Source: an uncultured Ruminobacter sp. (GTDB lineage: Bacteria > Pseudomonadota > Gammaproteobacteria > Enterobacterales > Succinivibrionaceae). From it: a DNA stretch of 32,324 bases. The notes under the pieces were generated by a model. That model saw only the letters and a program-made list of their open reading frames with translations. It did not search any database and was not told the origin of the DNA. Made by a program: the position numbers and the translations under genes. The stretch covers positions 1 through 32,324 of the forward strand of contig CACWVT010000022.1 in assembly GCA_902764345.1 (NCBI GenBank), given 5' to 3'. Below are positions 4,504 through 30,666 of this stretch, piece after piece (position 1 is the first letter of the stretch; the number at the start of each line of letters is the position of its first letter).

Positions 4504-4511
4504 ATTTTATT

Positions 4512-6698
4512 TTAATCTCCTATACGCTTAATAAAGACAGTAGCTAAAGGAGGAAGATTCAGTACGATAGAATGATACTGGCCGTGCCATGAAACATCAG
4601 AGGCCTCAAATTCAATGCCGCCCAGATCATAATCACTACCCCAATAGTACTTGCTGTCCGTATTCAGGATAACCTTGTACTTGCCTGCAGTCGGAACACC
4701 GAGGCGATACTGCTCGTGGGTTGTAGGAGTGAAGTTACTTACCACGATTACAGGATTTTCACCGTTGGCATCTCTGCGCATCATGGCAAAAATACTGTTC
4801 TGGTAATCGCTGTGATCCAACCACATGAAACCGCTCTTGTCGTAATCGGCATTGTACAGGGCAGGTTCAGACTTATACATTGCGTTCAGATCCTGAATAA
4901 GCTTCTTCTGTCCCTTATGCTTATCGAACTGGAGCAGCCACCACTGAAGCTGGCTGTCATGGTTCCATTCTGCAGTCTGTGCAAATTCCGTACCCATGAA
5001 GTTAAGCTTCTTACCAGGATGCGCATACATGTAGCCCATGTAGGCTCTCAGGTTTGCAGCCTGCTGCCATTCGTCACCAGGCATCTTGTACAGCATTGAA
5101 AGCTTGCCGTGTACAACTTCGTCGTGAGAAATAGACAGAATGAAGTTTTCATCATAGGCATAAATCATGGAGAAGGTCATTTCACTGTGATGATACTTAC
5201 GGTAGATAGGATCCTTCTTCATGTATTCAAGAGTATCGTGCATCCAACCCATGTTCCACTTGAAGCCGAAGCCGAGACCACCGGTGTAGGTAGGACGTGA
5301 AACACCAGCGAAAGCTGTTGATTCTTCAGCAATGGTCATGCACTGAGGATAATTCTTGTAAACTTCTTCGTTAAACCATCTTAAGAGACTGATGGCTTCG
5401 TAGTTGTGGTTACCGCCGTCAACGTTAGGTACCCATTCACCGGCCTTACGTGAGTAGTCCCAGTAAAGCATTGAAGCTACGGCGTCTACACGGAGACCGT
5501 CAACATGGTAGTAGTCGAGCCATACAAGGGCACTTGCAACCAGGAACTGACGAACGGTGTCACGACCAAAGTCGTAAATGTATGAATTCCAGTCAGGATG
5601 CCAACCACGACGAGGGTCTTCGTATTCGTATAAAGGAGTACCGTCGAAACGGGCGAGACCGTGTGAATCTGAAGGGAAGTGAGCAGGTACCCAGTCGAGA
5701 ATTACACCGATGCCGTTCTGGTGACACTGATCGATGAAGTACTTAAAGTCATCGGCAGTACCGAATCTGCTGGTTGGAGAGAACAGACCAACCGGCTGAT
5801 AACCCCAGGAACCGGAGAACGGATGTTCCATGATAGGAAGAAGTTCGATATGGGTGTACCCCATTTCCTTTACGTAAGGAATCAGTTGTTCAGCCATTTC
5901 ACGATAGCTCAGACTGTCACCGTTTTCGTGACGGCGCCATGAAGCAAAATGAAGCTCGTAGATACTGATTGCCTGCTTGAGCTTGTCATTCTTCTGACTT
6001 TCAATCCAAGCGGCATCGTTCCACTTGTAACGTTTCTGATCGTATACAACTGAAGCGAATGAAGGATACTGTTCGGCATAGAAGCCTACAGGGTCAGACT
6101 TGTGCGGTAAACGATTGCCGAACGGGTCCTTAAGTTCGTACTTATAGCGTTCACCTTCGCCGAGACCAGGAACGAACAGAACCCATTCACCCATTAAGCT
6201 TCTCTGCATAGGATGGCGGCGACCGTCCCAGAAGTTAAAGTCACCGATTACGCTTACGTTACTTGCTGACGGAGCATAAACTGCAAAACGAACACCCTTA
6301 ATCTTAACGCCTTCAACTTCAATCTCCACCAGCTGGGCCCCCATGGTACGATACAGGTTTGCGGCATCATTACGCATGGTAGACAGACCTTCGTAAGCTT
6401 CGTTACGGAACTGGTACGGATCGATTACCTGAATCTTTGAATCTTGGTATTCAACGTCAAACAGGTAGTTGAATTCCTTGTCGGCCTTAGGGAAGTTAAG
6501 CTCAAAAAGACCTTCCTCTTCAACCTTTGCCATGGAACCGAGTTTCTTCTTGCCGTCGATTGACTTCACGTCAACACTGATTGCACCAGGCAACCAGGTA
6601 CGGAGAATGTAACCGCCCTGACCTTCAGGATTCTTTTGCAAACCAAAAGTCTCAAAAGGTCTTGCCAAACTGGCATTATTCAAATCATCAATAAGCAT
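4512..6698 (-). CDS. glgB: 1,4-alpha-glucan branching enzyme GlgB (728 aa)
   Basis: Transfers segments of alpha-1,4 glucan chains to the 6-position, creating branches in glycogen. The length is the same as E. coli GlgB (728 aa) and the catalytic residues fall at the same numbers: nucleophile Asp405 in DGLRVDAV, acid/base Glu458 in TIAEES, and Asp526 in ISHDEVVHGK. Two N-terminal beta domains occupy about 1-220; the second carries VIGDFNFWDGRRHPM, typical of CBM48. AAGGA lies 6 bases before the ATG. It is the first gene of a glgB-glgX unit. No glgC, glgA or glgP is present in the window, so synthesis and phosphorolysis must be encoded elsewhere. Confidence 0.96.
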   Translation of the reverse strand: MLIDDLNNASLARPFETFGLQKNPEGQGGYILRTWLPGAISVDVKSIDGKKKLGSMAKVEEEGLFELNFPKADKEFNYLFDVEYQDSKIQVIDPYQFRNEAYEGLSTMRNDAANLYRTMGAQLVEIEVEGVKIKGVRFAVYAPSASNVSVIGDFNFWDGRRHPMQRSLMGEWVLFVPGLGEGERYKYELKDPFGNRLPHKSDPVGFYAEQYPSFASVVYDQKRYKWNDAAWIESQKNDKLKQAISIYELHFASWRRHENGDSLSYREMAEQLIPYVKEMGYTHIELLPIMEHPFSGSWGYQPVGLFSPTSRFGTADDFKYFIDQCHQNGIGVILDWVPAHFPSDSHGLARFDGTPLYEYEDPRRGWHPDWNSYIYDFGRDTVRQFLVASALVWLDYYHVDGLRVDAVASMLYWDYSRKAGEWVPNVDGGNHNYEAISLLRWFNEEVYKNYPQCMTIAEESTAFAGVSRPTYTGGLGFGFKWNMGWMHDTLEYMKKDPIYRKYHHSEMTFSMIYAYDENFILSISHDEVVHGKLSMLYKMPGDEWQQAANLRAYMGYMYAHPGKKLNFMGTEFAQTAEWNHDSQLQWWLLQFDKHKGQKKLIQDLNAMYKSEPALYNADYDKSGFMWLDHSDYQNSIFAMMRRDANGENPVIVVSNFTPTTHEQYRLGVPTAGKYKVILNTDSKYYWGSDYDLGGIEFEASDVSWHGQYHSIVLNLPPLATVFIKRIGD

Positions 6699-7138
6699 TA
6701 GTGTTCCTTAGTTTTTATAGCAGTAACTGCTTTATTGTTTTATAAATCAGATTCTAATTGCGTCTTAACTGCAGACCTGTAGAGTACACACGACTTAACT
6801 AAAACGTTCGGCCCGTTTTTGTTCCTAAGAACTGATATTAGACATCGGAGATGCCTGCCGTACGTTCTGAAGCATCCAACACTTAAGTTTTTCGCATAAA
6901 ACGGAAAGGATGCCCGTGCCTGCAATATTAATAAACTGTCTATGATTATTGCATTTTTTGGATTAAAACATGCTGTAAATTGTGCAATATTGTCGGATAG
7001 ATCATTTAATTTACAACTTTTATTTCAGTAAAAATAAATGAAAACGATTTAGATAAAAATTAAGCACTTTAACCGTAAGGTTCGAGAGAAAAAATGATGA
7101 CGGATGTAATAAGAATACCGATAACAAAGACAGACATA
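6699..7138. other. Non-coding gap upstream of glgB
   Basis: Between the malQ terminator and the glgB start. It must carry the glgB promoter if glgB is not read through from malQ, but no convincing -35/-10 pair and no CRP-like palindrome was found by eye. The only open frame (6740-6925, minus) lacks a ribosome binding site and is not called. Confidence 0.5.
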
Positions 7139-7168
7139 AAAACGGGAGTGCATACACACTCCCGTTTT
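7139..7168 (-). terminator. Terminator of malQ
   Basis: Perfect 12-bp stem AAAACGGGAGTG (7139-7150) with CACTCCCGTTTT (7157-7168) and a 6-base loop. The A/T arms supply U-tracts in both directions. It lies 28 bases after the malQ stop, separating malQ from glgB transcriptionally. Confidence 0.85.
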
Positions 7169-7195
7169 CGTTAAAACTTAAGTCAGTTCCAGAAA

Positions 7196-9394
7196 TTACA
7201 TTCTGTTGCTGGCCTTGAGTCTTGCCTCAGTCATCTTCTTCAGGAGAGACTTGATCTCGCGATTGTTGAATACTTCGCTTAAGTTCTTGGCAATCTTACG
7301 TCTCCAGTTAGGATATTCGGTAGAAGTACCAGGAACATTTACAGGCTTGTCCATACCTAACCAGTCTTCAATCTGAGTACTGAATAAGGCACAGTTGCCG
7401 AGACACATGTGAATCTGCATGCCGTCACGAAGTTCCTTGCTCATTGGGCAGTTGTGAGCATCTCTTGAAACCTTGTCAGAGATTACGCCGTGCCAGTGTA
7501 AGCTGTCAAGAATGCGTTGCTGGTCTTCAGTACGTGCATTACCGATTGACTGTACTGCTGCATCGTCATATAAACCAAGTTCTCTGCCGAGAGTAAGGTC
7601 ACTGTGACTCCACCAGCCTTCAATGGTAGGCATGTCATGGGTAGACAGTGCACTCATAGCCTGTTCAACGTAATCCTTAGGAGAAATGAAGCCACCGTCG
7701 GTTTCACTCTTTTCCCAGAAGAAAATCTTGTATGAATGAATACCGGCATCACGGAGAATTGCCTTCATTTCGTATGGAACGGTACCTAAGTCTTCACCAA
7801 TGATGAGACACTTGTTACGCTGTGATTCAAGCGCAAGAATACCTACAAGATCATGTACACGGTAGTAAACATATACACCCTGCTTAGCTGAAGCTGCAGG
7901 TGGAACCCACCACAGACGGAGTAATGACATTGCGTGGTCAATACGTAATGAACCGCAGTGCTGCATGTTTGATCTGAAGAGATCAATGATTGGCTGATAA
8001 CGGTTTTCTACCAGCTTCTTAGGATCCATTGGAGGTAAGCCCCAGTTCTGTCCTAAAGGTCCTAACGGATCTGGCGGAGCACCTACGGAAGCCTTAACAC
8101 AGTAGAGACTGCCGTTAGCCCAGATTTCTTCTGAACCTTCTGATACGCCTACTGCGAGGTCACGATAGATACCTACAGCCATCTTGCTGTCCTTTGCAGC
8201 CTGATGAGCAGCTTCAAGCTGTTCGTCAGCGAGGAACTGGAGGTACATGTAGAATTCAACGTCGATTTCATGTAAGTTAGCCCATTCCTTGGCGATTGGG
8301 TCACTGTACTTTCTGAAACCGTCTCTCCATACCGGCCAACCCCAGGCATTTTCGCCGTTTGAATAGAAGTGAGCCATGATGGCATCGTATAAAGCCATAG
8401 CCTTGAGAGATTCACCGCCGTTTTCCTTGAACTTGGCGTAAGCCTTACCTCTGATGGTACGGTTATCGAACAGAGCCTTCTGTTCGTCAAAAAGCTTACG
8501 GAGAACTTCAAGCTTAAGCTTCATTACATTGGTGTAATCTACATAGTCAACACTGCGCAGAGCATTCAGCTTCTTCTGGAAGTCAGAAGAGCGAACAAGC
8601 TTCTGGGCATCTTCGTTGTTCTTGAATTCGAAGGTATTTTCAGGATTGATGTAAATTACGTTCAGCCATCTGCGTGATGAAGGACTGTACGGACTTGCTG
8701 ATTCAGGGTTTGAAGGGTAAGCTGCATGAATAGGATTTACGCCGACGAAACCTGCACCATTTTCAGCAAGATTGATAATAAGATCCTTAAGATCACCGAA
8801 ATCACCGATACCCCAGTTCTTTTCAGATCTGAGAGCGTAGAGCTGCACGCTTGGACCCCATACTTTATTGCCGTTTAAAATTTCTTCAGGCTTGTAGCAG
8901 GCACGAGGACAAATGATTAAGCGCATTGGCTCAAAGGTTCTTTCACAGGTCTTGAAGGTGATATCATGATAACCTAACGGTAATGCAACGATTAAGTTAG
9001 TTCTGTATTCGATGTATTCAACACCCTTAACGACACGTGAATAAGCACGGGTATTCTTGTCAATGTAGAACTTACCCTGACACTTGGTGCCATCTTCCTG
9101 AACTACGTAATACTCGATCTCGTTATTTGATTCATTATCCGTAAGTCTTACGGTGATTTCAATTGCCTTGTTTTCGGTAGTAACAAATACAGGTTCGGTA
9201 CCGCTTACGAATAAAGCGTCCTGTTCCTGATTGTACTGTTCAGCAAGAGCTTCCTGATCATCGACATTGTAACCCAATGCCTTAAGACACTGAAGTTTGC
9301 ATTCATCAGAGATGATTACTTTCTGACCACTAGCATCGATGTATTCACCAGCGATACCGCGAGCATAAGCAATTTGTTCAATTAGATTAGCCAT
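7196..9394 (-). CDS. malQ: 4-alpha-glucanotransferase (amylomaltase) MalQ (732 aa)
   Basis: GH77 enzyme that disproportionates maltodextrins, releasing glucose and longer chains for phosphorylase. The N-terminal extension of about 170 residues is typical of the long proteobacterial MalQ. The catalytic part begins at VWGPSVQLYALRS and has NWGIGDFGDL, nucleophile Asp486 in SLRIDHAM, acid/base Glu534 in IIGEDLGTVP, and Asp587 in LSTHDMPT. The ATG at 9394 (MANLIEQ) is chosen because GGGAA stands 6 bases upstream; the in-frame ATG at 9424 has no ribosome binding site and would lie close to the predicted transcript start. A terminator separates it from glgB, so it is a single-gene unit upstream of the glycogen pair. 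Confidence 0.93.
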   Translation of the reverse strand: MANLIEQIAYARGIAGEYIDASGQKVIISDECKLQCLKALGYNVDDQEALAEQYNQEQDALFVSGTEPVFVTTENKAIEITVRLTDNESNNEIEYYVVQEDGTKCQGKFYIDKNTRAYSRVVKGVEYIEYRTNLIVALPLGYHDITFKTCERTFEPMRLIICPRACYKPEEILNGNKVWGPSVQLYALRSEKNWGIGDFGDLKDLIINLAENGAGFVGVNPIHAAYPSNPESASPYSPSSRRWLNVIYINPENTFEFKNNEDAQKLVRSSDFQKKLNALRSVDYVDYTNVMKLKLEVLRKLFDEQKALFDNRTIRGKAYAKFKENGGESLKAMALYDAIMAHFYSNGENAWGWPVWRDGFRKYSDPIAKEWANLHEIDVEFYMYLQFLADEQLEAAHQAAKDSKMAVGIYRDLAVGVSEGSEEIWANGSLYCVKASVGAPPDPLGPLGQNWGLPPMDPKKLVENRYQPIIDLFRSNMQHCGSLRIDHAMSLLRLWWVPPAASAKQGVYVYYRVHDLVGILALESQRNKCLIIGEDLGTVPYEMKAILRDAGIHSYKIFFWEKSETDGGFISPKDYVEQAMSALSTHDMPTIEGWWSHSDLTLGRELGLYDDAAVQSIGNARTEDQQRILDSLHWHGVISDKVSRDAHNCPMSKELRDGMQIHMCLGNCALFSTQIEDWLGMDKPVNVPGTSTEYPNWRRKIAKNLSEVFNNREIKSLLKKMTEARLKASNRM

Positions 9395-9438
9395 ATAATG
9401 TTCCCAACTTAAATAGGTTATCATTTGTTAATGTCAAT

Positions 9439-12228: not shown

Positions 12229-14127
12229 CTAACAGTAGCTGAATACCTTATGTGCAAGAAGTTCAGTCAGTGCCGCCGGAAGTTCTGAGGCATTACCGAT
12301 ATCAACACTCTCCTCAAACAGTGTCCTTAACCTGTCACCGTTAGGTGCAACCCTAAGTGCATATACTTCAATGTTGTTGCCTTTTGCCTTATTAAGCATC
12401 TCCGTTGCAAAGTCGTAATTATCCGGCTCTCCGTCGGTGATAACTATAATGATATTGCGGTGGTATTTATCGACGCTCGGCATGTTGCTCATTGAATAAA
12501 GAAGAGCCTGAGCAAGAGGAGTACATCCTCTCGGCATTAAATCAAAATATGTAGCCCTCTCAACAAGTGACTGCCCGCTGCGATAGACCTCCTCATATTC
12601 ACAGCAGTTTCCGGGAAAATAGATAACACGGTTATCAACATTTCTGACATTCTCAAGTGACATGGCAAGCGACAACGCCAGATGATTTGCCACCTGAGAC
12701 CTGGTAACCTTGCTGTCAGGTCTGCATGGTCTGCTCATTGAACCGGAAATATCCACAAGAAGATGCACTGTGGTATTTAAAGCGCGGCGCGGACTCTTCT
12801 TTTTGAACACATCATCACTGAGCTTTCCCCCGTATGTATATTGATAGCGTCTCACGTCAAGACATCTTCCTGATGAGGCTGCGCCGTAATTCCACTCCTC
12901 ATAGCCCTTAACAAGATGGCTAATATCCGCACGGAGTGTATTGTCATTAAGAACTTTCCTGTAAAGTGACAAATCCTTGGCCGGTGCTGAGTTTCTGGAA
13001 ACAAGAGAACCTATATCCACTGCTCCTTTAGACTTAGCTGAACAGTTTTCAATAATGGTGGCAAGATCCGGATGTCTGCGGTCACACTGAGAGTTTTCAG
13101 AAAAACTGAACGGTTCCTTCATTCTGCCGATAATCTTTTCAAACTCACGGATCATTTTTTGTCTTCTTCTGGATCCGTTACCATCCTCATCACCGGTTCC
13201 GAACTCTGAAAGAAATTCTCCGTATTCACCGAGACTCTGTTCAACGTGAGATTTAGGCTCCGTTGAGGTGATTGCTTCGCCTCCATTTGCGCCAGAGCTA
13301 CCCTCACTGCCGTTAAATACTGAGTCAAAGAGATCAGTCTGAAACGGTGCACCGGTCTTCCCTTGAGTTTTTAAAGGTTCAGAGCATTCTATCGAATCAG
13401 AGATTCTTCCTCCGGTCCATGACGACTCAGAAAACATGCCTGTATTACCAGCTTTTTCGGAAGACTCCTTATCTGCCTCCTTCTGACGCATGTATTCGTC
13501 ATTGGCGAGCTCAAAGCAATTCATGAATATATTAAGTATTTCACGACTAAGTTCAAGAACCTCTGCAGAATCACGGCAGTTTACCGATCCTGCGGCCTTT
13601 TCCTCAATTGCATCAATCACGGTCTCCGGTATTATCTTCTTAAGTCTGGTTCTCGCAGCCTTGAGGCTGTTACCGGAATTCTGATTCAGACAGCGGACTC
13701 TGTTTGAACAGTCAAGAAACGCTGTTATGAGACTTGCCCTGTTTTTGCAGTTCTTAAGATAACGGCATACGGATTCATCCAACTTTCCTACTATGTTATT
13801 AAAGGTTTTTCTTAACCCGGGCCAGTTGGCAATCTGCAGATTCTCTATGCGCGTATCTTCCAGGGCGTTGAAAATTCTCGGAAGAATCCCTGCCTTGTCA
13901 TAAGATTTACCGAAGACATCAAAATCACTGTATCTTACGTGACCGCATTCGTGTGCCACATAGCCGAATGCCAGATCCATTTCCTCCGGATTGTTGAAAT
14001 TGAGTCGCGGTATCGTAATGTTTTTGCCGTCGGTGTACGCGGCGGCACCGTACATGTAAAGATTGATACCAAAATTACTTGCGTAATTGCCCATGATTAG
14101 CGGCAGTGCGCCATGATTTATCTGCAT
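12229..14127 (-). CDS. CobT-like protein: metallopeptidase-type N-terminus plus VWA domain (632 aa)
   Basis: The N-terminal part contains VAHECGHVRYSDF with a full HExxH zinc motif (residues 59-63) and a downstream EDTRIE (90-95) that could supply further ligand or catalytic residues. Residues about 215-330 are a polar, Gly/Ser/Glu-rich linker. The C-terminus is a von Willebrand A domain with an intact MIDAS: DISGSMS (Asp459), Thr536 in CTPLAQAL, and Asp565 in VITDGEPD. This layout matches CobT/DUF2201-type proteins, which usually work with a MoxR/CobS-type AAA+ ATPase. No such ATPase or cobalamin gene is nearby, so a cobaltochelatase role is not supported. The start at 14127 has GGAAGGA 8 bases upstream; an ATG at 14133 is too close to it, and the frame extends to 14202. 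Isolated gene with its own terminator. Confidence 0.75.
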   Translation of the reverse strand: MQINHGALPLIMGNYASNFGINLYMYGAAAYTDGKNITIPRLNFNNPEEMDLAFGYVAHECGHVRYSDFDVFGKSYDKAGILPRIFNALEDTRIENLQIANWPGLRKTFNNIVGKLDESVCRYLKNCKNRASLITAFLDCSNRVRCLNQNSGNSLKAARTRLKKIIPETVIDAIEEKAAGSVNCRDSAEVLELSREILNIFMNCFELANDEYMRQKEADKESSEKAGNTGMFSESSWTGGRISDSIECSEPLKTQGKTGAPFQTDLFDSVFNGSEGSSGANGGEAITSTEPKSHVEQSLGEYGEFLSEFGTGDEDGNGSRRRQKMIREFEKIIGRMKEPFSFSENSQCDRRHPDLATIIENCSAKSKGAVDIGSLVSRNSAPAKDLSLYRKVLNDNTLRADISHLVKGYEEWNYGAASSGRCLDVRRYQYTYGGKLSDDVFKKKSPRRALNTTVHLLVDISGSMSRPCRPDSKVTRSQVANHLALSLAMSLENVRNVDNRVIYFPGNCCEYEEVYRSGQSLVERATYFDLMPRGCTPLAQALLYSMSNMPSVDKYHRNIIIVITDGEPDNYDFATEMLNKAKGNNIEVYALRVAPNGDRLRTLFEESVDIGNASELPAALTELLAHKVFSYC

Positions 14128-20311: not shown

Positions 20312-21436
20312 TCAGACCTTTGCGTCGTGCATCTTGGCAATAAGGTTCTTGCTTTCGGACATAAAGTAGTCGGCCAGAGGCCCGAAGAATTCCTTGGTCA
20401 TTCTGAACTGTTCAATGAAGGCATCTCGGTCCCCCTGCTTCAGCAGTCTGATGGCTCCCTCAATCTCTTCGGCATAACGCTCAATGATGTCAAGATTACG
20501 CTTATTGGAAAGTATGATGTCGGCATAAAGCACAGGATCCTGAGCAAACAGACGCCCTACCATCATGAGTTCCATGCGGTAAATAGGAGAGCTCAATTCC
20601 ATGAGAACGTTCAGATCCGGATTTTCCCTGGCGAGGAACACACCGTAGCTGAAGGTGGTAAAGTGTCTCAAGGCCTGAATGTAGCTCATGGCATCATCGT
20701 GCTCGGATGCACTGAACTTTTTGATGCGGGCTCCCCAAAGGCTCATCTGTTCAAGTACCCATGAGCACTTCTCAGGATAACGTCCGTCAACGGAAATGAT
20801 TACCTGCTTTGCCATATTGGAAATATCCGGTCCGAACATCGGATGAAGCCCGATTACTGGGCCTTCATGAACTTCCATCATCTGACGTACGGGACTGGTC
20901 TTTACGGATGTAAAATCGGCAAGCACGCAGTCGGGACTTAAAAGCCCCTTAAGTCTGCCGATAACTTCGGCTGTACAGTCAATCGGCACGCATACAACAA
21001 CAAGTCCTGCACCGGACATAATCTCCGGCGCACGATCCCAGTCACGGTGTCCCATCACCTCAACTGTATAACCAGAACTCCGGAACAGGCGCGTAAAAAT
21101 ACGACCGATGCCGCCACGTCCGCCTATAATGACAATCTTTTTTACTGATTCGTTAAGACACTTGAATCCGACGTCATTTTCAGCACCGTATGATTCTCTC
21201 ATCACACGTCTCAGAACGTCTTCGGCAAGGTCCGGATTAAGCCCCAGATTTTCAGCCTGTGCACGACGCTTTTCAATTAGGCTCAGTTCTCTCTCGGGAA
21301 CATATACAGGAGTCCCCTCCCTGCTTTTGATAACGCCTACCTGCTTAACCAGTTCAAGACGTTTGCGTAAAACCTTCAGTAACTCACTGTCATTCTCATC
21401 AATCTGAGCTCTTACCTGATCTAATGTTAAGTTCAT
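20312..21436 (-). CDS. tyrA: T-protein: chorismate mutase/prephenate dehydrogenase TyrA (374 aa)
   Basis: Bifunctional enzyme for the first two tyrosine-specific steps: chorismate to prephenate, then NAD-dependent oxidative decarboxylation to 4-hydroxyphenylpyruvate. Residues 1-90 are an AroQ-class mutase with the conserved Arg/Lys helix ([18 protein letters not shown]). The dehydrogenase begins at about 98 with [14 protein letters not shown] (105-111 is the dinucleotide loop). His198 in [10 protein letters not shown] corresponds to the catalytic His197 of E. coli. Length matches E. coli TyrA (373 aa). The ATG lies 4 bases after the mlaA stop with no clear ribosome binding site, implying translational coupling. 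No TyrR box or leader peptide precedes it, as its upstream region is the mlaA gene. Confidence 0.95.
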
Positions 21437-21440
21437 AAAA

Positions 21441-22271
21441 TTATTCGTCTATCTCATCCATATACTGTTCAAGGTTCTCGTCATTCTCATCAACTGAGGA
21501 GGTGGCATCGGTACCTGAAACAAGACCTTCCTGATACATTAAATAAAAATCTCTTGCCTGGCTGTACGGGTCAAGTGAATTGCGCAACACCTCATCCTGA
21601 TCCAGTGTAGCGGCTCTGCTGTCCACGGCATTAAAGCCCCAGAGAATGCCGTCAACCCATAAAGGAAAATACGTAAACGGGAAATACAGAGTATCCACGG
21701 CACTGCCGATGTAGCTTCTGTAGGTACCGATTCCGAGTCCGGGAATAACCACGTATGCTCCCTGATCGACACCCCACTTACCGAGGACGGTATCCATTGA
21801 CATGCGCTTTCTTTCCAGACCCATGTATTTTGCGACATCAATACATCCCAAAAGGCCTACCGTAGAGTTGATGCCGAAACGGAGAGCACTTGTTCCGCTG
21901 TCGAGAGGTCTTGCAACCAGCAGATTGTTCACCGTGTTGTTTACCTCACGCAGATTCTGATGGGCATTAGACAAACAGACACGGATGACTTCAGGTACGT
22001 AGTCCACGTATGCCACGGACACCGGTCTTAAGAGATTCTTGTCCAGGTAGTCATAATTGACAGTCCAGCCGATTCTGCGGTTCGGGGTTTCATATACGTC
22101 CAGTGCATCCCCGGGAAGATACGTATACCCGTAGGTATAATCCTTATCCACATTAACCACGTTGCGCGGAGACATAATCCCCACTGATGACCTTGAAGCC
22201 CAGGCTCCCTCTGAAAGACAGAATGCGGCAATTCCAACCGCCACGGCAAAGGTATTTTTAAACAAACTCAT
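21441..22271 (-). CDS. mlaA: MlaA/VacJ-family outer-membrane lipid transport protein (276 aa)
   Basis: Component of the Mla pathway that removes mislocalised phospholipids from the outer leaflet. Family features include [20 protein letters not shown] followed by [11 protein letters not shown], then [18 protein letters not shown] and the [15 protein letters not shown] stretch. The N-terminus is a signal peptide (1-25, with AWA before the cut). The only Cys there, Cys18 after Phe17, is not a proper lipobox, so unlike E. coli MlaA this may not be a lipoprotein. The C-terminal tail is strongly acidic. GAGG stands 7 bases before the ATG. First gene of an mlaA-tyrA pair; mlaBCDEF are not in the window. 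Confidence 0.88.
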
Positions 22272-22783: not shown

Positions 22784-23398
22784 ATGAAGAGATTACAAAA
22801 CATACTCACGGCCCTAATTGTAGGCTGTGCATTCTTTCTGGCATCTTCCTCAGTCGGCGCAGCCGATTCCGAAGACAACGTAATTACTGATCGTTACGGC
22901 AATGCCATCGGTTCATTTCAGACAAACAGCGACGGTTCCACCGTCTATAAAGACAGCTTCGGCCGTGAAATATCCACTTCACAGCATGATGCTGACGGTG
23001 CTCTGATTTTTACCCAGTCCGGAGCTGACAACGACAAGTACGCCGCAAACGCATCCGACACTTCAGGATACAGTGAAAAGAATACCGTTTACCGTGACAG
23101 ATACGGCAGCAAGGTTGGCACCTCAAAAACCGATTCAAAAGGTCACACCGTAATGAGGAACCGCTACGGTCAGAAGATCGGCACATCCGATACCGACAAG
23201 ACCGGCAAGACCACCTACCGTGACAAATACGGCAGAAAAATCGGAACATCAACCGAAAACTCCAACGGTCAAACCGTAATCAGAGACAGATACGGCAAAA
23301 AGATCGGTACTTCAACCACTGACGACAGAACCGGTAAGACCACCTACCGCGACAAATACGGCAGAAAAATCGGGCAGTCAGAAACCAAAACAAAATAG
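22784..23398 (+). CDS. Exported protein made of 21-residue repeats (204 aa)
   Basis: A signal peptide (1-26, ending SSVGA) is followed by a repetitive chain with a 21-residue period. Two degenerate units (33-53 and 54-74) and a linker precede five close copies: 102-122, 123-143, 144-164, 165-186 (one residue longer) and a partial last unit at 187-204. The consensus is (V/T)YRDRYGxKIGTSxTDxxGKT. The unit is rich in Gly, Lys, Arg, Thr and Tyr with no Cys, resembling short beta-hairpin repeats of surface proteins. It is not YD/Rhs, whose motif differs. I do not recognise a named family and assign no function. AAGGA lies 8 bases before the ATG. A strong terminator follows; single-gene unit. Confidence 0.8.
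   Translation: MKRLQNILTALIVGCAFFLASSSVGAADSEDNVITDRYGNAIGSFQTNSDGSTVYKDSFGREISTSQHDADGALIFTQSGADNDKYAANASDTSGYSEKNTVYRDRYGSKVGTSKTDSKGHTVMRNRYGQKIGTSDTDKTGKTTYRDKYGRKIGTSTENSNGQTVIRDRYGKKIGTSTTDDRTGKTTYRDKYGRKIGQSETKTK
23087..23395 (+). repeat. Tandem 63-66 bp coding repeats
   Basis: Five units encode the YRDRYGxKIGTS repeat. Units 2-3 and 4-5 resemble each other in pairs (GGCAAGACCACCTACCG against GGTAAGACCACCTACCG), indicating a two-unit duplication of about 129 bp. Confidence 0.75.
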
Positions 23399-23461: not shown

Positions 23462-23499
23462 GAAGGCGGGCACGGAATAATCCGTGTCCGCCTTCTCTT
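23462..23499 (+). terminator. Terminator of the repeat-protein gene
   Basis: A 15-bp stem (23462-23476 with 23481-23495, one G-T pair) around an ATAA loop is followed by TCTTTTAT. Confidence 0.9.
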
Positions 23500-23633: not shown

Positions 23634-23852
23634 TTACCTTTTTTCATTTTCGGAGAGCTGCTTTGCATAGGCCACCGTTTCGGCAATAATGCTGTATACG
23701 GCATGGCCGGCATTTCTCTGTTGCCTGGATTCAGCCCGGTTTACCGGAAGGTCCGCATTGGGATGCAGATTAAAGCCGAGATCCGATGACATTGAAACGA
23801 TGTCGTCGGATAAAGCGTCATCCTGCCTGCCGTTTTCGTTATTATCAGTCAT
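23634..23852 (-). CDS. Small FlhB C-terminal-like protein (72 aa)
   Basis: Soluble protein whose second half reads like the last part of the FlhB/YscU cytoplasmic domain: GFNLHPNADLP corresponds to the stretch preceding the final helices, and HAVYSIIAETVAYAKQL to the signature LYxAVAEVLAxVYxL. The N-terminal 25 residues are acidic and unlike FlhB, and the autocleavage motif NPTH is absent. AGGAG lies 6 bases before the ATG, a strong site that argues for a real gene. It follows the FliK-like gene after 50 bases on the same strand. Stand-alone FlhB C-terminal homologues are known (Helicobacter pylori HP1575), but this one is shorter. Homology is inferred by eye; at this length chance similarity is possible. 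Confidence 0.6.
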   Translation of the reverse strand: MTDNNENGRQDDALSDDIVSMSSDLGFNLHPNADLPVNRAESRQQRNAGHAVYSIIAETVAYAKQLSENEKR

Positions 23853-23902
23853 AACACACTCCTGTGTACGTATTTCATCCTAAAGGGATTATTCCGCATA
23901 TC

Positions 23903-26900
23903 CTATACGGATGGTGGATAAACAGTGCCCATACGGCTGTTAATGTTCACAACTCTGAGACCGTGTCTTTCAATACCATTCTTCAGACTGTCCGAGGTAT
24001 CATTGATAAGTCTCAACGCTTCAAATTTTTCCGAAACGATACTGATGCTCACATCCTCACCGTTAAGCTCTGTCAGAATCTGCACAGCACCAAGGTTTTC
24101 CAACTCAAAGAAGAAATTAATCTTCCACACCGTGCCGTTGGCACCTTCGGTATGGCTCACGTTCATTCCGCCTTCCCTGCCGTGTGCGTAAAGCGGAGGC
24201 AAAGGAAGGAATGCCGGAAGTCCCAGCTCATCGGTAAAACCGCTCAGAAGCTGCATTCTTTCAATCTGCTGCAGGGTAAGGAAAATACTTTCGTCCACCC
24301 ATCTGCAGTCCCCCCTGACGTCAAGATCCCCATACGGCTCTGCAGAACTGAATACGGACACATCCCTGCCCAGAAGCCGGAACTTCAGAGAAAGAAGCAT
24401 CACGGTCCACTGCTGAATTATCCTGCCGCGTCTTCCCGAAGTGGTAAGTGGATTTCCAACAAAACCGAGCCACTCCATAACATCGTCCGCATCCTTCAGA
24501 GGTTCCGTAAGAGCCCTGCGCATACCTTTGGCGATATTGATGATTCCTTCTGAGGCATTACCGCGCTCAATGAGTTCATTAAGAGAATTCACAATACGAT
24601 CCATCGGTACGCTGCGGTGGTTAACATCATTGAAATCTCTGTCGAATCTGCGTTTTTCCCTGACACGTGAAGAGCTTCCGAAGAATTTTCTGAATCTTGA
24701 GAAGAGGCCTTCAGAACGTTTTTCATTATCCGATGATTCATGTGAGTCATCAAACTTGCCGGCATCATTCTCTCCTTCAGCGGACGAAGATGCCTGAGAA
24801 AACGACTCCTTAATATCAGTCTCAGAACGAGACACTGCTGATGATTCATCTTTTACGAAAACCGAATCTTCATGAATGTCATCAGCCATTTCGGCTTCAC
24901 TCTCACTGCTAACCGGCAGTTCAACGATTCCGGTAACGGTATCGGTTATAACCTGATTCTCATCGATGCTTATCACCTCGTCACTGCCGGTAAATTCCCC
25001 GGTATCGACATTTATAACCTCATTATCATCAACAAATCTTTCTGCTTTAGGCTCGTCTGAAACCGAGTCATCACCTGCGATATGAGAACTGCCTACCCAT
25101 GAATAACGTCCCGTACTGCCTATGCTTATCGTTTTAACCGCACCACGCTCGGAAGATTCATGATGAGGTTCAGCCTCATTTTCCTGATGAGATGAAAAGC
25201 CGGTGTCTGATAAAGCATCAGATGCAGAATCCGCAGTGGATGCATTCTCCACGTCAGAAAGCATTTCGCTTTCGGTTTCACTCAGAGAAATTTCGGAGTT
25301 GACGTTATCCCGCTCATCCCCGGAACCGGAGATCATTTCAGGTTCTTCCTGTTCTGCGGCATTCAGGAAAACCGGCTGTGATACTTCAGGAGCCGTATAT
25401 TCGGACTCCACACTGTCGCAGGCATCATTTATGGCCTCATCCTCTCTGCCTTCGTCAGGAGCAGATAATGTCTCTGCATAGTCTGAATCAGACTGAACAT
25501 AAGATTCGGTATTGAGGCTTTCAGCCCCATCATCTTCAGTCTCAGTATTTCCGGAAGCTTCCGCCACCGGATCCGGATATACGGTTACAACGTCGTTTCT
25601 TACTGTTTCGGCAAGTCTTAAAAGAACATTCTGCTCCTCTTCAAGGTTTTCCATGAACTTGTCGTCATTATCGGCTTCGTTCTCCGAAGCAGGAGCATCG
25701 GCCTCATCAGTTCCGGAAGATTCCCCACCATCGTCTGAACTGCCGTCAGTGGAATTTTCAGTATTTTCCATGGCAATGGCGGCACTTAAGGAATCCTCGT
25801 CAGAAAAAATATCCAGCCCGTCTGAACCTATAACCATATCGTTTTCGGCCGAAGTTTCTTCAGTCGTATCCGGATTTTTATCAGGTTCCGCATCATCTTT
25901 TACATAATTTTCATATGACTCACTGACAGCTGAAACATTTGAGCTTGCCGAAGCTTCGGATTTCTGTTCTCCGGGCTCTCCGGTTCCGGAAACCGGATTC
26001 GGAGAGTTAATGTATTCCACGTCGTTTGCGACCTTCTGAATAAGCTCGTTGACGCGACGGCTGAGATTTGCGTTCTGCGGGATCTCGGTACTGCGCTCTC
26101 TGGCGTTACCGCTTAACTTCTCGCACTGTTCCTTAAAGGAATTGAATTCCCCGATAAGGTCTATATCCATCTGAGGAAGAGGAGTTCCTCCGTTCCCGGC
26201 ACTTAGAGCTGCCGCCCCTGTGGCATTTTCCTGAACGGAACCATCTTTTACCGGACCGTTAACACCTTCCGGAGATTCCGGGAAAAGCACATTACGGGTT
26301 ACGGCATCGGCACGGCTTCTTGAGAAGTCATACCTTGAAAGCATCTCTTCATCATAAAGACCGGACATGCCCGCATGAGGATTCTCCCTGAAGAACCTGG
26401 CAATTTCCTCTTCTGTAAGATTTCCTGCATCAAAGGCCTCGCCTTTTCCTGGAAGATCAGCCTCGACGATTTCACCGTTACCATCACCCTTTATGAGGTT
26501 TGCGGATCTGGCAATTGAAGCCGCCCTGCGGATAAGATTGTCCACTCTTCTGGCGATGGCCTCACTCTCCTCATCCTGATACTTTCCGTCAGACTCGAAA
26601 AGTCCCATGTTGCCGGTATCCTCTGGAATCTCATCAACGGCATCACGGATAAAGTTGCGAAGCTCCTGTTCCTTCGCAGCCTGATACAGCGCAACCCTGT
26701 TCCTGGAAACAAGATAAAGCACGTGAGGCTGATGCGCCATGATAAATTCTACTGCAGCCACAAACAGACGGCTGAATACCACCCTGCCCTTAACCGTAAG
26801 TGCCTGTGACGGCACGGATATTCTCAGCTTTTCAAGACGCTTTACGAGAGCAGGAGTTATGTTTTCGGCTGTCAGGATATTGGCGATAAGGGCGCAAAGA

Positions 26901-27391
26901 TAATGCATCAGTGCGGCCCCTGGGGCATTATTCTCCCTGAAGATGCGAGGAAGAGTGGTACACAGACTGAAAAACTCATCGGCGGCGGCATAGCTCTTTA
27001 CCACGTGAAATCTGCCGGTAAGGGTATTTGAAAGAAGCTCTGTAAGTTCTGCGTCAGAAGAAGCAAGATCCCTGATAAGTGAAACACAGGTCATATCATC
27101 CGTACCGGCAGAAGCTGCCAGTGCAGAAATAGGATCGGCAGCTAGGGCCGCCACATAGCGCTGAACGTTCTCCTGCAGTGCGGCAAGCTCCGGAGGAAGC
27201 AATGGACAGTCTCTTGTAAGTGCACTCAGGTAGGCGTAAGAGGCACTTACGTTAATAACCTTTCCGGCATTCTCCGCAAGAACCGCACGAAGGTCCTCCC
27301 CGCTGATCCCATCGGGCGCATTCACGGCGGAAGGTCCGTCTTTTCCCGCAGAAACACCGGAATCCTTTAATTTTAAATCTTCTCTCAACAT
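23903..27391 (-). CDS. Very long acidic protein with FliK-like C-terminal domain (1162 aa)
   Basis: Three zones are visible. Residues 1-460 are largely helical (ELAALQENVQRYVAAL and similar). Residues 465-895 are low-complexity and rich in Ser, Glu and Asp, likely disordered. A basic patch (SRFRKFFGSSSRVREKRR, about 898-915) then leads to a folded C-terminus. The last 74 residues (1089-1162; WKINFFFELENLGAVQ, then LNGEDVSISI, then LKNGIERHGLRVVNI) follow the Flg_hook pattern of flagellar hook-length protein FliK: strand, LG, strand, helix, then GLxVxxI. Many gammaproteobacteria carry such FliK-like genes beside a small FlhB-like gene, as appears here. The start at 27391 has no obvious ribosome binding site. 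No other flagellar genes are in view. The role is unknown. Confidence 0.65.
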   Translation of the reverse strand: MLREDLKLKDSGVSAGKDGPSAVNAPDGISGEDLRAVLAENAGKVINVSASYAYLSALTRDCPLLPPELAALQENVQRYVAALAADPISALAASAGTDDMTCVSLIRDLASSDAELTELLSNTLTGRFHVVKSYAAADEFFSLCTTLPRIFRENNAPGAALMHYLCALIANILTAENITPALVKRLEKLRISVPSQALTVKGRVVFSRLFVAAVEFIMAHQPHVLYLVSRNRVALYQAAKEQELRNFIRDAVDEIPEDTGNMGLFESDGKYQDEESEAIARRVDNLIRRAASIARSANLIKGDGNGEIVEADLPGKGEAFDAGNLTEEEIARFFRENPHAGMSGLYDEEMLSRYDFSRSRADAVTRNVLFPESPEGVNGPVKDGSVQENATGAAALSAGNGGTPLPQMDIDLIGEFNSFKEQCEKLSGNARERSTEIPQNANLSRRVNELIQKVANDVEYINSPNPVSGTGEPGEQKSEASASSNVSAVSESYENYVKDDAEPDKNPDTTEETSAENDMVIGSDGLDIFSDEDSLSAAIAMENTENSTDGSSDDGGESSGTDEADAPASENEADNDDKFMENLEEEQNVLLRLAETVRNDVVTVYPDPVAEASGNTETEDDGAESLNTESYVQSDSDYAETLSAPDEGREDEAINDACDSVESEYTAPEVSQPVFLNAAEQEEPEMISGSGDERDNVNSEISLSETESEMLSDVENASTADSASDALSDTGFSSHQENEAEPHHESSERGAVKTISIGSTGRYSWVGSSHIAGDDSVSDEPKAERFVDDNEVINVDTGEFTGSDEVISIDENQVITDTVTGIVELPVSSESEAEMADDIHEDSVFVKDESSAVSRSETDIKESFSQASSSAEGENDAGKFDDSHESSDNEKRSEGLFSRFRKFFGSSSRVREKRRFDRDFNDVNHRSVPMDRIVNSLNELIERGNASEGIINIAKGMRRALTEPLKDADDVMEWLGFVGNPLTTSGRRGRIIQQWTVMLLSLKFRLLGRDVSVFSSAEPYGDLDVRGDCRWVDESIFLTLQQIERMQLLSGFTDELGLPAFLPLPPLYAHGREGGMNVSHTEGANGTVWKINFFFELENLGAVQILTELNGEDVSISIVSEKFEALRLINDTSDSLKNGIERHGLRVVNINSRMGTVYPPSV

Positions 27392-27628: not shown

Positions 27629-29932
27629 TTAAAACAGAGACCTGATGAAGTTCCCCATCACGTCATCATCTTCAGATTCACTGTTACAGTAACGGACTTC
27701 CTCCTCGCTTATCATGTCTTCCCTGACAGGAAGCAGCTCAAAGCCGGATACATCGGTACAGGTCTCCGGATCCATTATGTAGCTTTTACTGCCGTCATAG
27801 CTGAAATAGGCATCGGCAATACCCTCAGGAATGGCCGGAACAAGAGAACGCACGCCTCTGATGCTGAGGAAGCGGTCATACACCGGCAGTGCTCCGGTTG
27901 CACCGGTGAGATTTGTTCTGGAGTTATCATCGTTACCGACCCAGACTGTAACAAGCTCATCATTGTCAAAACCGCTGAACCAGGAGTCAATACCGTCGTT
28001 AGACGTACCTGTTTTACCGGCAATCACGGCATTGTATTTTTTAAGAGACTTGGCGGTACCTATGGAAGTAACCTTTGTCATGCCGTAAACCGTCAGATAG
28101 GCATCACGTGGATCAAGAACCTGAACCTTGTCGGACTGCAGTTCCCTGTCGTAGATAACCTCATTCCCTCTGCGGACGACACGCACCGCGGACAGCGGTC
28201 TGTAAGCGCCCTCTGTGGCAATGGTGGAATACATCTGGTTAACCTCAATCGGAGTGAGTCCGAAGCTTCCAAGAAGCGTGCTCGGTACGGACTCTATGTT
28301 CTGCTCAATCCCGAGGCGGTGAATGGTGTCAACAACCTTCTGCACACCGACGTTCATACCGACTCTTACCATCGGTACGTTCAGGGATTTTGCAAAACCG
28401 CGGTACAGAGGAATCCAGCCGCTGAAGGTACCGCTGAAATTCTTCGGAGACCAATTCTGTCCGTTACGCATTTTTACGGTAACGGGAGCATCATGAACCA
28501 TACTGCCAAGATGCCAGCCGTTATTGAAGGCTGTCAGGTAGGCGGCCGGCTTCACCAATGAACCAATCTGTCTGCGTGCCTTGGTAACCCTGTTCATGCC
28601 CTGAAACTGCGGATCGCTACTGCCGACCACGGCGAGAATGTCTCCGGTACGCCAGTTGGAAACAACCACTGCACTTTCAAGCTTCTTTGTTCTTTTGGCG
28701 TTGAGTCCGCCAACCACTTCTTTTACGGCGGTGTTGGCGGCAAGCTGAACCTGTGGATCGAGACTCGTGAAGATGACGAGCCCGTTTCCGTTCAGATAAT
28801 CCTCACCGAGACGGCTCTTCAGTTCGTCCTTGAGAATGCTTATGTATCCCGGAACCTTGATTACGGAGAAGTTCTGCTCCTTGTCCACAACTCCGAGAGG
28901 CTTGGCAGCATACTCACGGTACTGCTTTTCGGTAAGCTTACCGGCCTGCACCATGAGACTCAGCACCAGATTTCTTCTCTTAAGTGCAGCTTCAGGATGT
29001 CTTCTCGGATCAAACTGTGAAGGCCCCTTTACCATTCCGACAAGAAGCGCCACCTGATGCCAGTCAAGCTCGCTTACCGGAATACCGAAATAGAAATATG
29101 AAGCCAGACCGAAACCGTATATATCCCTGTTTGAATGTCCGAGATAGATCTCATTGAGATACATTTCCAGAATCTGTGATTTTTCATATCTGGCATCAAC
29201 GATGATGGACATGAAGAGTTCCCTTACCTTTCGGTCAAGACTCTTCTGACTGTTAAGGAAGTAGTTTTTCACCAGCTGCTGGGAAATGGTGCTTCCTCCC
29301 TGAACCTTCTTACCGGCCTTGAAGTTCACCCACAAGGCTCTGAGAATGCCCTTAATGCTGATGCCGTGGTGATTGTAGAAATCACGATCCTCCACGTAGA
29401 CCAGGGTATCAATGAGCTTCTGCGGCACGTCATCTATGCTGATGAGCATGCGATCCTCTTCCCCGCTGGAGGACAGACGTTCGAGAAGAACGGGATCAAG
29501 CTGCACGATATCGATGTTTTCTCCCGTAGCGGCATCAGATATCGAGCTTATTCTGCTGTTTGAAAAGGTAATGTGAATCGGACGTGATTCCTCATATCCG
29601 TAGGAAAAATTGAACGGTCTTCTGATAATGACCATTCTGTCGCGGTTCTTGCTGACCCCGTACTCTCCAGGCTTACCCGGATTGGAAACCTTGCGGTACT
29701 TCAGCAGTGACAGTTCATGCTCCAACTGATCAAAGGTAATCTTCTGTTCAACAGTAAGTTCAAGAGGACGGCTGTAGACTACGGCCGGGGTGCGCCATTT
29801 CTGTTCGGCTGAGAGACTGCTGCTCGATATCACCACATAATAGTATGCACAGAGCATTACAAAAATTACTGCCAAAACAAGACCGAGCTTTATGCAGAGA
29901 CTGATTAATCTGCCAAAAAACGATTTACTCAT
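27629..29932 (-). CDS. mrcB: Bifunctional penicillin-binding protein 1b (767 aa)
   Basis: Inner-membrane enzyme that polymerises and cross-links peptidoglycan. One transmembrane helix (about 10-35) is followed by a UB2H-like region, where PBP1b of gammaproteobacteria binds the activator LpoB. The GT51 glycosyltransferase has EDRDFYNHHG (catalytic Glu181) and QGGSTISQQLVKN. The transpeptidase has SLVK (nucleophile Ser458), SLN (Ser516) and KTGT (from Lys640). The ATG at 29932 is preferred; an in-frame TTG at 29953 has no better ribosome binding site, and both are weak. The next gene downstream starts 237 bases away, so co-transcription is possible but not shown. Confidence 0.95.
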   Translation of the reverse strand: MSKSFFGRLISLCIKLGLVLAVIFVMLCAYYYVVISSSSLSAEQKWRTPAVVYSRPLELTVEQKITFDQLEHELSLLKYRKVSNPGKPGEYGVSKNRDRMVIIRRPFNFSYGYEESRPIHITFSNSRISSISDAATGENIDIVQLDPVLLERLSSSGEEDRMLISIDDVPQKLIDTLVYVEDRDFYNHHGISIKGILRALWVNFKAGKKVQGGSTISQQLVKNYFLNSQKSLDRKVRELFMSIIVDARYEKSQILEMYLNEIYLGHSNRDIYGFGLASYFYFGIPVSELDWHQVALLVGMVKGPSQFDPRRHPEAALKRRNLVLSLMVQAGKLTEKQYREYAAKPLGVVDKEQNFSVIKVPGYISILKDELKSRLGEDYLNGNGLVIFTSLDPQVQLAANTAVKEVVGGLNAKRTKKLESAVVVSNWRTGDILAVVGSSDPQFQGMNRVTKARRQIGSLVKPAAYLTAFNNGWHLGSMVHDAPVTVKMRNGQNWSPKNFSGTFSGWIPLYRGFAKSLNVPMVRVGMNVGVQKVVDTIHRLGIEQNIESVPSTLLGSFGLTPIEVNQMYSTIATEGAYRPLSAVRVVRRGNEVIYDRELQSDKVQVLDPRDAYLTVYGMTKVTSIGTAKSLKKYNAVIAGKTGTSNDGIDSWFSGFDNDELVTVWVGNDDNSRTNLTGATGALPVYDRFLSIRGVRSLVPAIPEGIADAYFSYDGSKSYIMDPETCTDVSGFELLPVREDMISEEEVRYCNSESEDDDVMGNFIRSLF

Positions 29933-30666
29933 AAAAATTAACACCGTCACCAAAATCAGGCATCCAACGGCTGATGCCCGTCATTCCGACATTGCCGCCG
30001 CTACGGAACTCAGAATTTTCCCGTCGCACGGCGCAATCCGTCGCTTAATCAAACATCCGTGTAATTTTTGTGAAGCCGGCTCAAACATGTAAGATTTCCA
30101 GTTCCCGAAGAACGTAAATTTACCCTTCCTAAAGCGGCAAGGCCCCAAAATAGAAACGCCGGCAAAAGGTAATAAGCCATCCTGGATTATACCGGCCTTA
30201 CGCAGTCATACCCGTATACTGAGATCAGGGAAGGGACAAAAAATTCCGCATCATTATATCATTGATAGCATGTTTGTTTACACAAAAATAGCCGTACCGG
30301 AAACAAGGTATGACGGCGATCATTTCCGGCTGACCGTCACCCGACGCGATTTCCGTCAGACAGGCACTGTCACGAACAGCATACGAAACACACATAATTC
30401 CGACAGAATGCGGAAATTCTCAAAGACAAAAACCTACCTGCGTTCAACTAATAAACATCTATGACGACATCTTTTGACAAAGATCTATTTTTTATAAAAA
30501 AAGATTTCAGATAAAAGGAAAAATGAAAAAGAATTAAATCATGACCTGATGCTTTTATGTCACTGTTTATGCGTAACGTGGCCTGCTCCGGCTGTTCAGA
30601 CCTGGTCCACGATGTCAAAACCTAGGCTAAACTTCATATTTATGAAAAAGAATTTGACATAAATCT
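29933..30666. other. Divergent intergenic region between mrcB and dksA
   Basis: About 730 bases plus the dksA leader, without a supported gene. A TATAAT on the minus strand (30191 to 30186) could be an mrcB -10 but lacks a matching -35. A small AT-rich inverted repeat lies at about 30483-30505. The plus-strand frame at 30270-30464 (64 aa) has no ribosome binding site and no recognisable features. Confidence 0.45.

Follow-up and report, generated by a model that had tools for sequence, protein, structure and literature searches.

The FliK2-FlhX gene pair

The window, a 32,324-nucleotide stretch of contig CACWVT010000022.1 from an uncultured Ruminobacter sp. of the family Succinivibrionaceae (genome 2.49 Mb, 92% complete), carries on its minus strand a gene for a 1162-residue FliK-like protein, which we call FliK2 (23903..27391). 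A second minus-strand gene, for a protein of 72 amino acids (aa) that we call FlhX (23634..23852), starts 50 bp downstream of it. An AGGAG ribosome-binding site, read from the sequence (23859..23863, minus strand), sits six bases ahead of the ATG of this gene, and an in-frame TAG lies 27 bases upstream of the same ATG. We compared the window with L002 (Ruminobacter sp. RGIG8895), L003 (R. amylophilus DSM 1361, an isolate) and L004 (uncultured bacterium RUG065), which together make up the four Ruminobacter genomes considered here, and with 17 of 20 further regions that carry relatives (the remaining three were duplicates), for a total of 21 loci. Over its last 199 residues, FliK2 matches these nearest relatives at 93% (L002), 74% (L003) and 55% (L004).

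The first-pass annotation of the window, made from the sequence alone, had given both open reading frames (ORFs) their correct positions and lengths and had assigned the C-terminal end of the larger protein to FliK. A profile search bore this assignment out, since residues 1084-1155 (23927..24142, minus strand) match PF02120, the Flg_hook or FliK C-terminal switch domain, at 36.7 bits versus a curated cut-off of 29.8. The acidic middle that it described is likewise real by composition, with 23-32 Asp plus Glu and 2-7 Lys plus Arg per 100 residues across residues 501-900; this low-complexity linker (about residues 501-930; 24602..25891, minus strand) is probably disordered. The N-terminal domain (about residues 38-305; 26477..27280, minus strand) is conserved in the alignment of orthologues. 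No sequence in the PDB matched it below E 0.11, and its Pfam matches were scattered single-member matches with no family match. Its structure model was all-helical with a mean pLDDT of 43, a low confidence obtained with few sequences in the alignment, and was not used. FliK2 had also been called far longer than normal, which is true relative to flagellar FliK, typically about 400 aa, but not relative to the second FliK proteins of the Succinivibrionaceae, which have paired open frames of anywhere between 297 and 2255 aa (contig ends may have truncated some of the short ones).

The structure models were weak, having been built from alignments of four or seven sequences. In a single-chain model of the L004 FliK2 C-terminal region joined to FlhX, the Flg_hook core (residues 161-240) was strand-rich with one helix and had block means of 63-84. 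Foldseek returned no PDB match to this model at E ≤ 0.001; the top probability among the best 50 of 465 matches belonged to the PscP switch domain 5cuk (0.98, E 0.16, 2.3 Å over 68 columns, rank 4). This predicted fold agrees with the Flg_hook sequence result, although it is not independent proof of it.

The first-pass annotation read the 72-aa protein as the end of the FlhB cytoplasmic domain, which no direct profile match supports: none of the four orthologues matched Pfam at E ≤ 10, and the protein had no NCBIfam match at E ≤ 1. We compared family profiles. The four Ruminobacter proteins (with L003 taken from an internal ATG, its frame in the ORF list being 96 aa from a GTG start) formed profile A2, and 16 free-standing FlhB C-domain proteins from other Succinivibrionaceae genera formed profile A3 (106 positions). 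Since all 16 members match PF01312 and the profile matches the solved FlhB C-domain 3b1s at 7e-13, A3 represents FlhB. Hhalign aligned A2 with A3 over 58 columns at a probability of 94% and a score of 42.5, whereas the best of 200 column shuffles scored 22.5 and the reversed profile 14.7; no shuffle of the 200 reached 42.5. Searched by BLASTP against all ORFs of 65 records, the 72-aa protein also gave a weak match to its syntenic counterpart in L052 (22% over 59 aa, E 2e-5), and its gene directly follows fliK2 in all four Ruminobacter genomes. These comparisons and the conserved place after the FliK-like gene identify the 72-aa protein, by homology, as an FlhB C-domain relative of the free-standing FlhX/FhlB type. 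It would be very surprising if it were instead an unrelated small gene, even though it matches nothing in Pfam or NCBIfam by itself and the A2 profile alone found no FlhB chain in the PDB, given that the A2-A3 score exceeds every shuffle, that the BLASTP match is to a syntenic FlhX and that the position is the same in all four genomes. Read directly, the sequence has no NPTH site and is too short for a membrane part, as had been noted before.

The pair and the export apparatus across genomes

At least one Flg_hook match (E ≤ 0.001) was present in 55 of 56 Succinivibrionaceae genomes and an FlhB-type match in 52. In 46 of the 56, a Flg_hook ORF and a lone FlhB C-domain match, defined as PF01312 from position 258-264 to 334, shared a contig and were no more than about 0.6 kb apart. 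The ten genomes without a detected pair were the four Ruminobacter genomes, in which the small protein falls below detection and the pair is conserved by position (4/4); G013, in which FlhX is eroded; G026, which has no Flg_hook; and G039, G040, G046 and G053, which have one Flg_hook each and are 77-89% complete. A second FliK next to a lone FlhB C-domain is thus a trait of the Succinivibrionaceae, and the gene linkage on which the first-pass annotation had staked its proposal is conserved. As a separate observation, 24 of the 56 genomes contain a lower-scoring class of FlhA (about 718-753 bits) with corresponding lower-scoring FlhB matches, perhaps a non-flagellar type III system, and in both genomes of genus g10 the lower-scoring full-length FlhB is followed, about 0.55 kb downstream, by a further lone FlhB C-domain match (G027:C2:214636-214872, G028:C24:37651-37887).

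Searches for FlhB (PF01312) and FlhA (PF00771) found neither in the four Ruminobacter genomes and both in all of the others among the 56. FliF/YscJ (PF01514) was likewise not found in the four, whereas it is present in G021, G013 and G026. Since the Ruminobacter genomes are 92-97% complete and one comes from the isolate DSM 1361, an assembly gap is an unlikely cause. R. amylophilus is not known to be motile; among the matches listed in a search of the open-access literature, we found no statement on its motility and no report of a FliK-FlhX pair in Ruminobacter.

With no FlhA, FlhB or FliF/YscJ found, an export switch or hook ruler in Ruminobacter would have no target. The first-pass annotation had suggested a spare or modified secretion switch or a ruler of unusual length, and neither suggestion fares well. 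The pair does combine the right domain types in the right pairing, and flagellate relatives carry the same pair; however, it is highly improbable that the pair works as an export-specificity switch, a spare FlhB part or a hook ruler in four nearly complete genomes in which the apparatus was not found, with an FlhX that lacks a strand region of the family alignment (see below) and with paired frames spread so widely in length. The ruler was rejected because no apparatus was found and because of that frame range.

FliK-C contacts FlhB-C to control type III export. In Bacillus subtilis, which is flagellate, ylqG-ylqH combines a FliK-like gene with an adjacent lone FlhB-C gene away from the flagellar operon; it resembles the Ruminobacter pair in arrangement. 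The free-standing FlhB C-domain protein HP1575 of Helicobacter pylori has reportedly been described as a spare part. Nitratiruptor has an flhX-fliK locus outside its main flagellar cluster (PMC9321776), FlhX is counted among export components (PMC10746217, PMC4758666) and the FliK/FlhB mechanism is treated in PMC3040844. These FlhX/FhlB/YlqH-type proteins (HP1575, likened by description only, and Nitratiruptor flhX-fliK) share with Ruminobacter the arrangement of a lone FlhB-C gene next to one of FliK type, away from the main flagellar cluster. H. pylori and Nitratiruptor, however, are flagellate, whereas Ruminobacter FlhX is trimmed at both ends and is encoded in a genome without detected FlhA, FlhB or FliF/YscJ. 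FliK2 similarly shares the C-terminal switch domain of FliK/T3S4 proteins (PF02120; PscP 5cuk) but, unlike them, is 1162 aa long, contains an acidic linker and an N-terminal domain without a Pfam match, has no C-terminal tail and occurs in four genomes for which no type III export apparatus was detected. Lacking such an apparatus, it is unlikely to be secreted during hook assembly or to determine the length of a hook, as FliK does.

Wider samples comprised 276 genomes from the class (at least 90% complete) and 396 from the phylum; only the best candidates per genome were scored (for FlhB and Flg_hook, respectively, no more than 7 and 18 among the class genomes and 5 and 13 among those of the phylum), which means that some genes may have been missed. 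In the class sample, FlhB was found in 154 of 276 genomes and Flg_hook in 153, and only G000 and G292 had Flg_hook without any FlhB match. FlhB was a weak match only in G086 (4.7e-9), G099 and G321 (the three values being 4.7e-9, 1.6e-17 and 3.2e-18), and we took these matches as fragments. FlhA, which was checked in four class genomes, was present in G292, G099 and G321 and was not found in G086. The G086 genome, a single contig, is without detected FlhA or FliF/YscJ, has only the weak FlhB match and keeps both pair genes in broken form, each interrupted by a repeat of ~290 bp (L065 7492-7783 and 8684-8967) that has further copies in L065 near 1522-1809, 1858-2148 and 13545-13824. Judging from these genomes, loss of the machine normally goes with loss of the pair, and Ruminobacter appears to be the sole intact exception found in the class sample. 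In the phylum sample, Flg_hook was found in 323 of 396 genomes and FlhB in 332, with Flg_hook alone in G000, G403 and G567; the last two could be export-less holders or cases of missed FlhB genes.

Trimming and constraint in Ruminobacter

Both proteins are trimmed in Ruminobacter, FliK2 at its C-terminal end and FlhX at both ends. All four FliK2 proteins end at YPPSV or YPPTM, whereas the other 17 extend roughly 17 or more residues beyond this point, and 14 of these 17 tails end, by eye, in an LSVDI, LSVKI or LNLRI-like pattern (the exceptions being L045, L048 and L064). Ruminobacter FlhX aligns to positions 29-86 of the 106-position family profile, so that some 28 positions are missing at the N terminus (the YD...P.V.AKG strand region) and some 20 at the C terminus (LQGKTPE...DGT.AIN). 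Both the profile alignment and, in the window, the TAG ahead of the ATG show that it lacks the N-terminal strand region of a complete C-domain. Both frames are open in all four genomes. The same ends are missing in each of them, so the losses must have occurred before the genus diverged. In G013, where FlhX is eroded, the only FlhA is of the lower-scoring class (747 bits), a score from which we infer a type III secretion system type.

We estimated the ratio of nonsynonymous to synonymous substitution rates (dN/dS) between the window and L002 by a Nei-Gojobori count. For FliK2, dN/dS was 0.09 over residues 1-300, 0.31 over residues 301-900 and 0.07 over residues 901-1162; for FlhX, it was 0.17. 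Synonymous sites were saturated or nearly so relative to L003 and L004, FlhX giving a dN/dS of 0.11 at a dS of 2.2 against L003. Identity in the FliK2 C-domain is 0.52-0.68 among Ruminobacter genomes at TyrA identities of 0.80-0.89, compared with 0.45-0.49 at 0.63-0.68 for three near flagellates, 0.62 at 0.76 for the g12 pair and 0.57 at 0.52 for the g3 pair. By these measures, both genes are under purifying selection in Ruminobacter but are less constrained than in flagellates.

The same data bear on the principal alternative, namely, that export was lost and the pair is a slowly decaying relic whose two genes are shedding segments, are under weakening constraint and lack a present function. 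The trimmed ends of FliK2 and FlhX, the faster divergence of the FliK2 C-domain relative to TyrA, the broken genes of export-less G086 and the eroded FlhX of G013 would all be expected of such a relic. Nonetheless, the frames are open in all four genomes, even though the two most distant genomes have only about half of the residues of the FliK2 end domains in common; dN/dS is 0.07-0.17 outside the linker; and the same ends are trimmed in all four, which dates the trimming to before the divergence of the genus. We consider decay a serious possibility, with perhaps half as much chance of being right as of being wrong.

Neighborhood and a possible role outside export

The pair is flanked upstream by mrcB, encoding PBP1B (27629..29953, minus strand; TIGR02071 over cut-off), and downstream by an mlaA-like gene (21441..22271, minus strand; NF011672, below its cut-off) and tyrA (20312..21436, minus strand; NF008400 over cut-off), which serve as positional context only. 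One or both of mrcB and mlaA-tyrA adjoin the pair in 19 of the 21 loci. The exceptions are L049, whose contig ends 0.9 kb downstream and which has neither in 5.1 kb upstream, and L061, whose contig begins 0.4 kb upstream and which has neither in 3.9 kb downstream. Since the orientation of the pair relative to these genes differs between genera, the shared neighborhood looks like a chromosomal position and not an operon. An operon with mrcB or mlaA was not adopted, both because of this difference in orientation and because a scan for promoters did not exceed chance (9 found versus 9.1 expected).

Between the FliK2-FlhX unit and a plus-strand gene for a 204-aa protein, a repeat scan found a 15-pair inverted repeat that is a possible terminator (23462..23495, no strand assigned); terminator-like sites in the region numbered 10 versus 7.6 (standard deviation, 2.7) by chance, which is within chance. 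The 204-aa protein (window 22784-23398, plus strand) has by eye an apparent signal peptide and contains tandem DRYGxKIGTS-type repeats; it has relatives in L002, L003, L004 and L063 and no Pfam match over cut-off. Elsewhere in the window (2212-9424 and 156-1883, both minus strand), glycogen/starch enzymes of the debranching, GlgB and MalQ types lie beside a DDE transposase, which fits a starch-degrading rumen bacterium.

The location of the pair outside flagellar operons, in a conserved place beside mrcB and/or mlaA-tyrA, could mean that it has a non-export function across the whole family, flagellates included, which Ruminobacter merely reveals. This is improbable, however, since Flg_hook and FlhB come and go jointly in the class sample, G026 has only the lower-scoring FlhA and is without Flg_hook, the orientation to the neighbors varies and both partners are trimmed in Ruminobacter.

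We instead favor, at a probability of about 0.5, the reading that an export-switch pair has outlived its machine in Ruminobacter and has probably found a new use as a binding module in the cytosol. From established knowledge of FliK and FlhB, flagellate relatives most likely use the pair to adjust type III export via contact of FliK-C with FlhB-C. Ruminobacter would then have lost the export apparatus but kept both genes in shortened form. Contact between the FliK2 C-domain and the trimmed FlhX most likely persists in the cytosol, and the acidic linker would tether the resulting module to an N-terminal domain that is predicted to be helical. Because there is no export gate, the module cannot switch export, and it would now serve a non-export role, exapted rather than dead. 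The decay of the pair elsewhere after export loss, as in the broken G086 genes and the eroded G013 FlhX, we count in favor of re-use in Ruminobacter. The predicted FliK2-FlhX binding and a present role for it we hold, taken jointly, to be an even bet. More tentatively, the FliK-FlhB_C module may have become independent of type III export in this rumen genus and been put to use as a stand-alone protein-protein unit in the cytosol, its partners having shed corresponding segments (the tail of FliK2, and the strand region and tail of FlhX) for which only the export machine had a need.

Several observations weigh against this reading. Class genomes without FlhB almost never keep a Flg_hook gene, which makes export the probable sole ancestral role. 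The dN/dS values of the pair are well above those of its neighbors (mrcB, 0.03; mlaA, 0.08; tyrA, 0.02), and, relative to TyrA, the FliK2 C-domain diverges faster in Ruminobacter than it does in the near flagellates, which fits relaxed constraint. In the L004 model, the FlhX part had a confidence below 60 and its placement was of low confidence, with few sequences in the alignment.

Ruminobacter, in which the machine was lost but the pair was kept, is a clean setting for testing whether the pair has a function outside export. The segments that disappeared together with the machine suggest which regions of the two proteins are used for export and which have another purpose, and the retention of the pair without the machine suggests that it can act beyond flagellum building.

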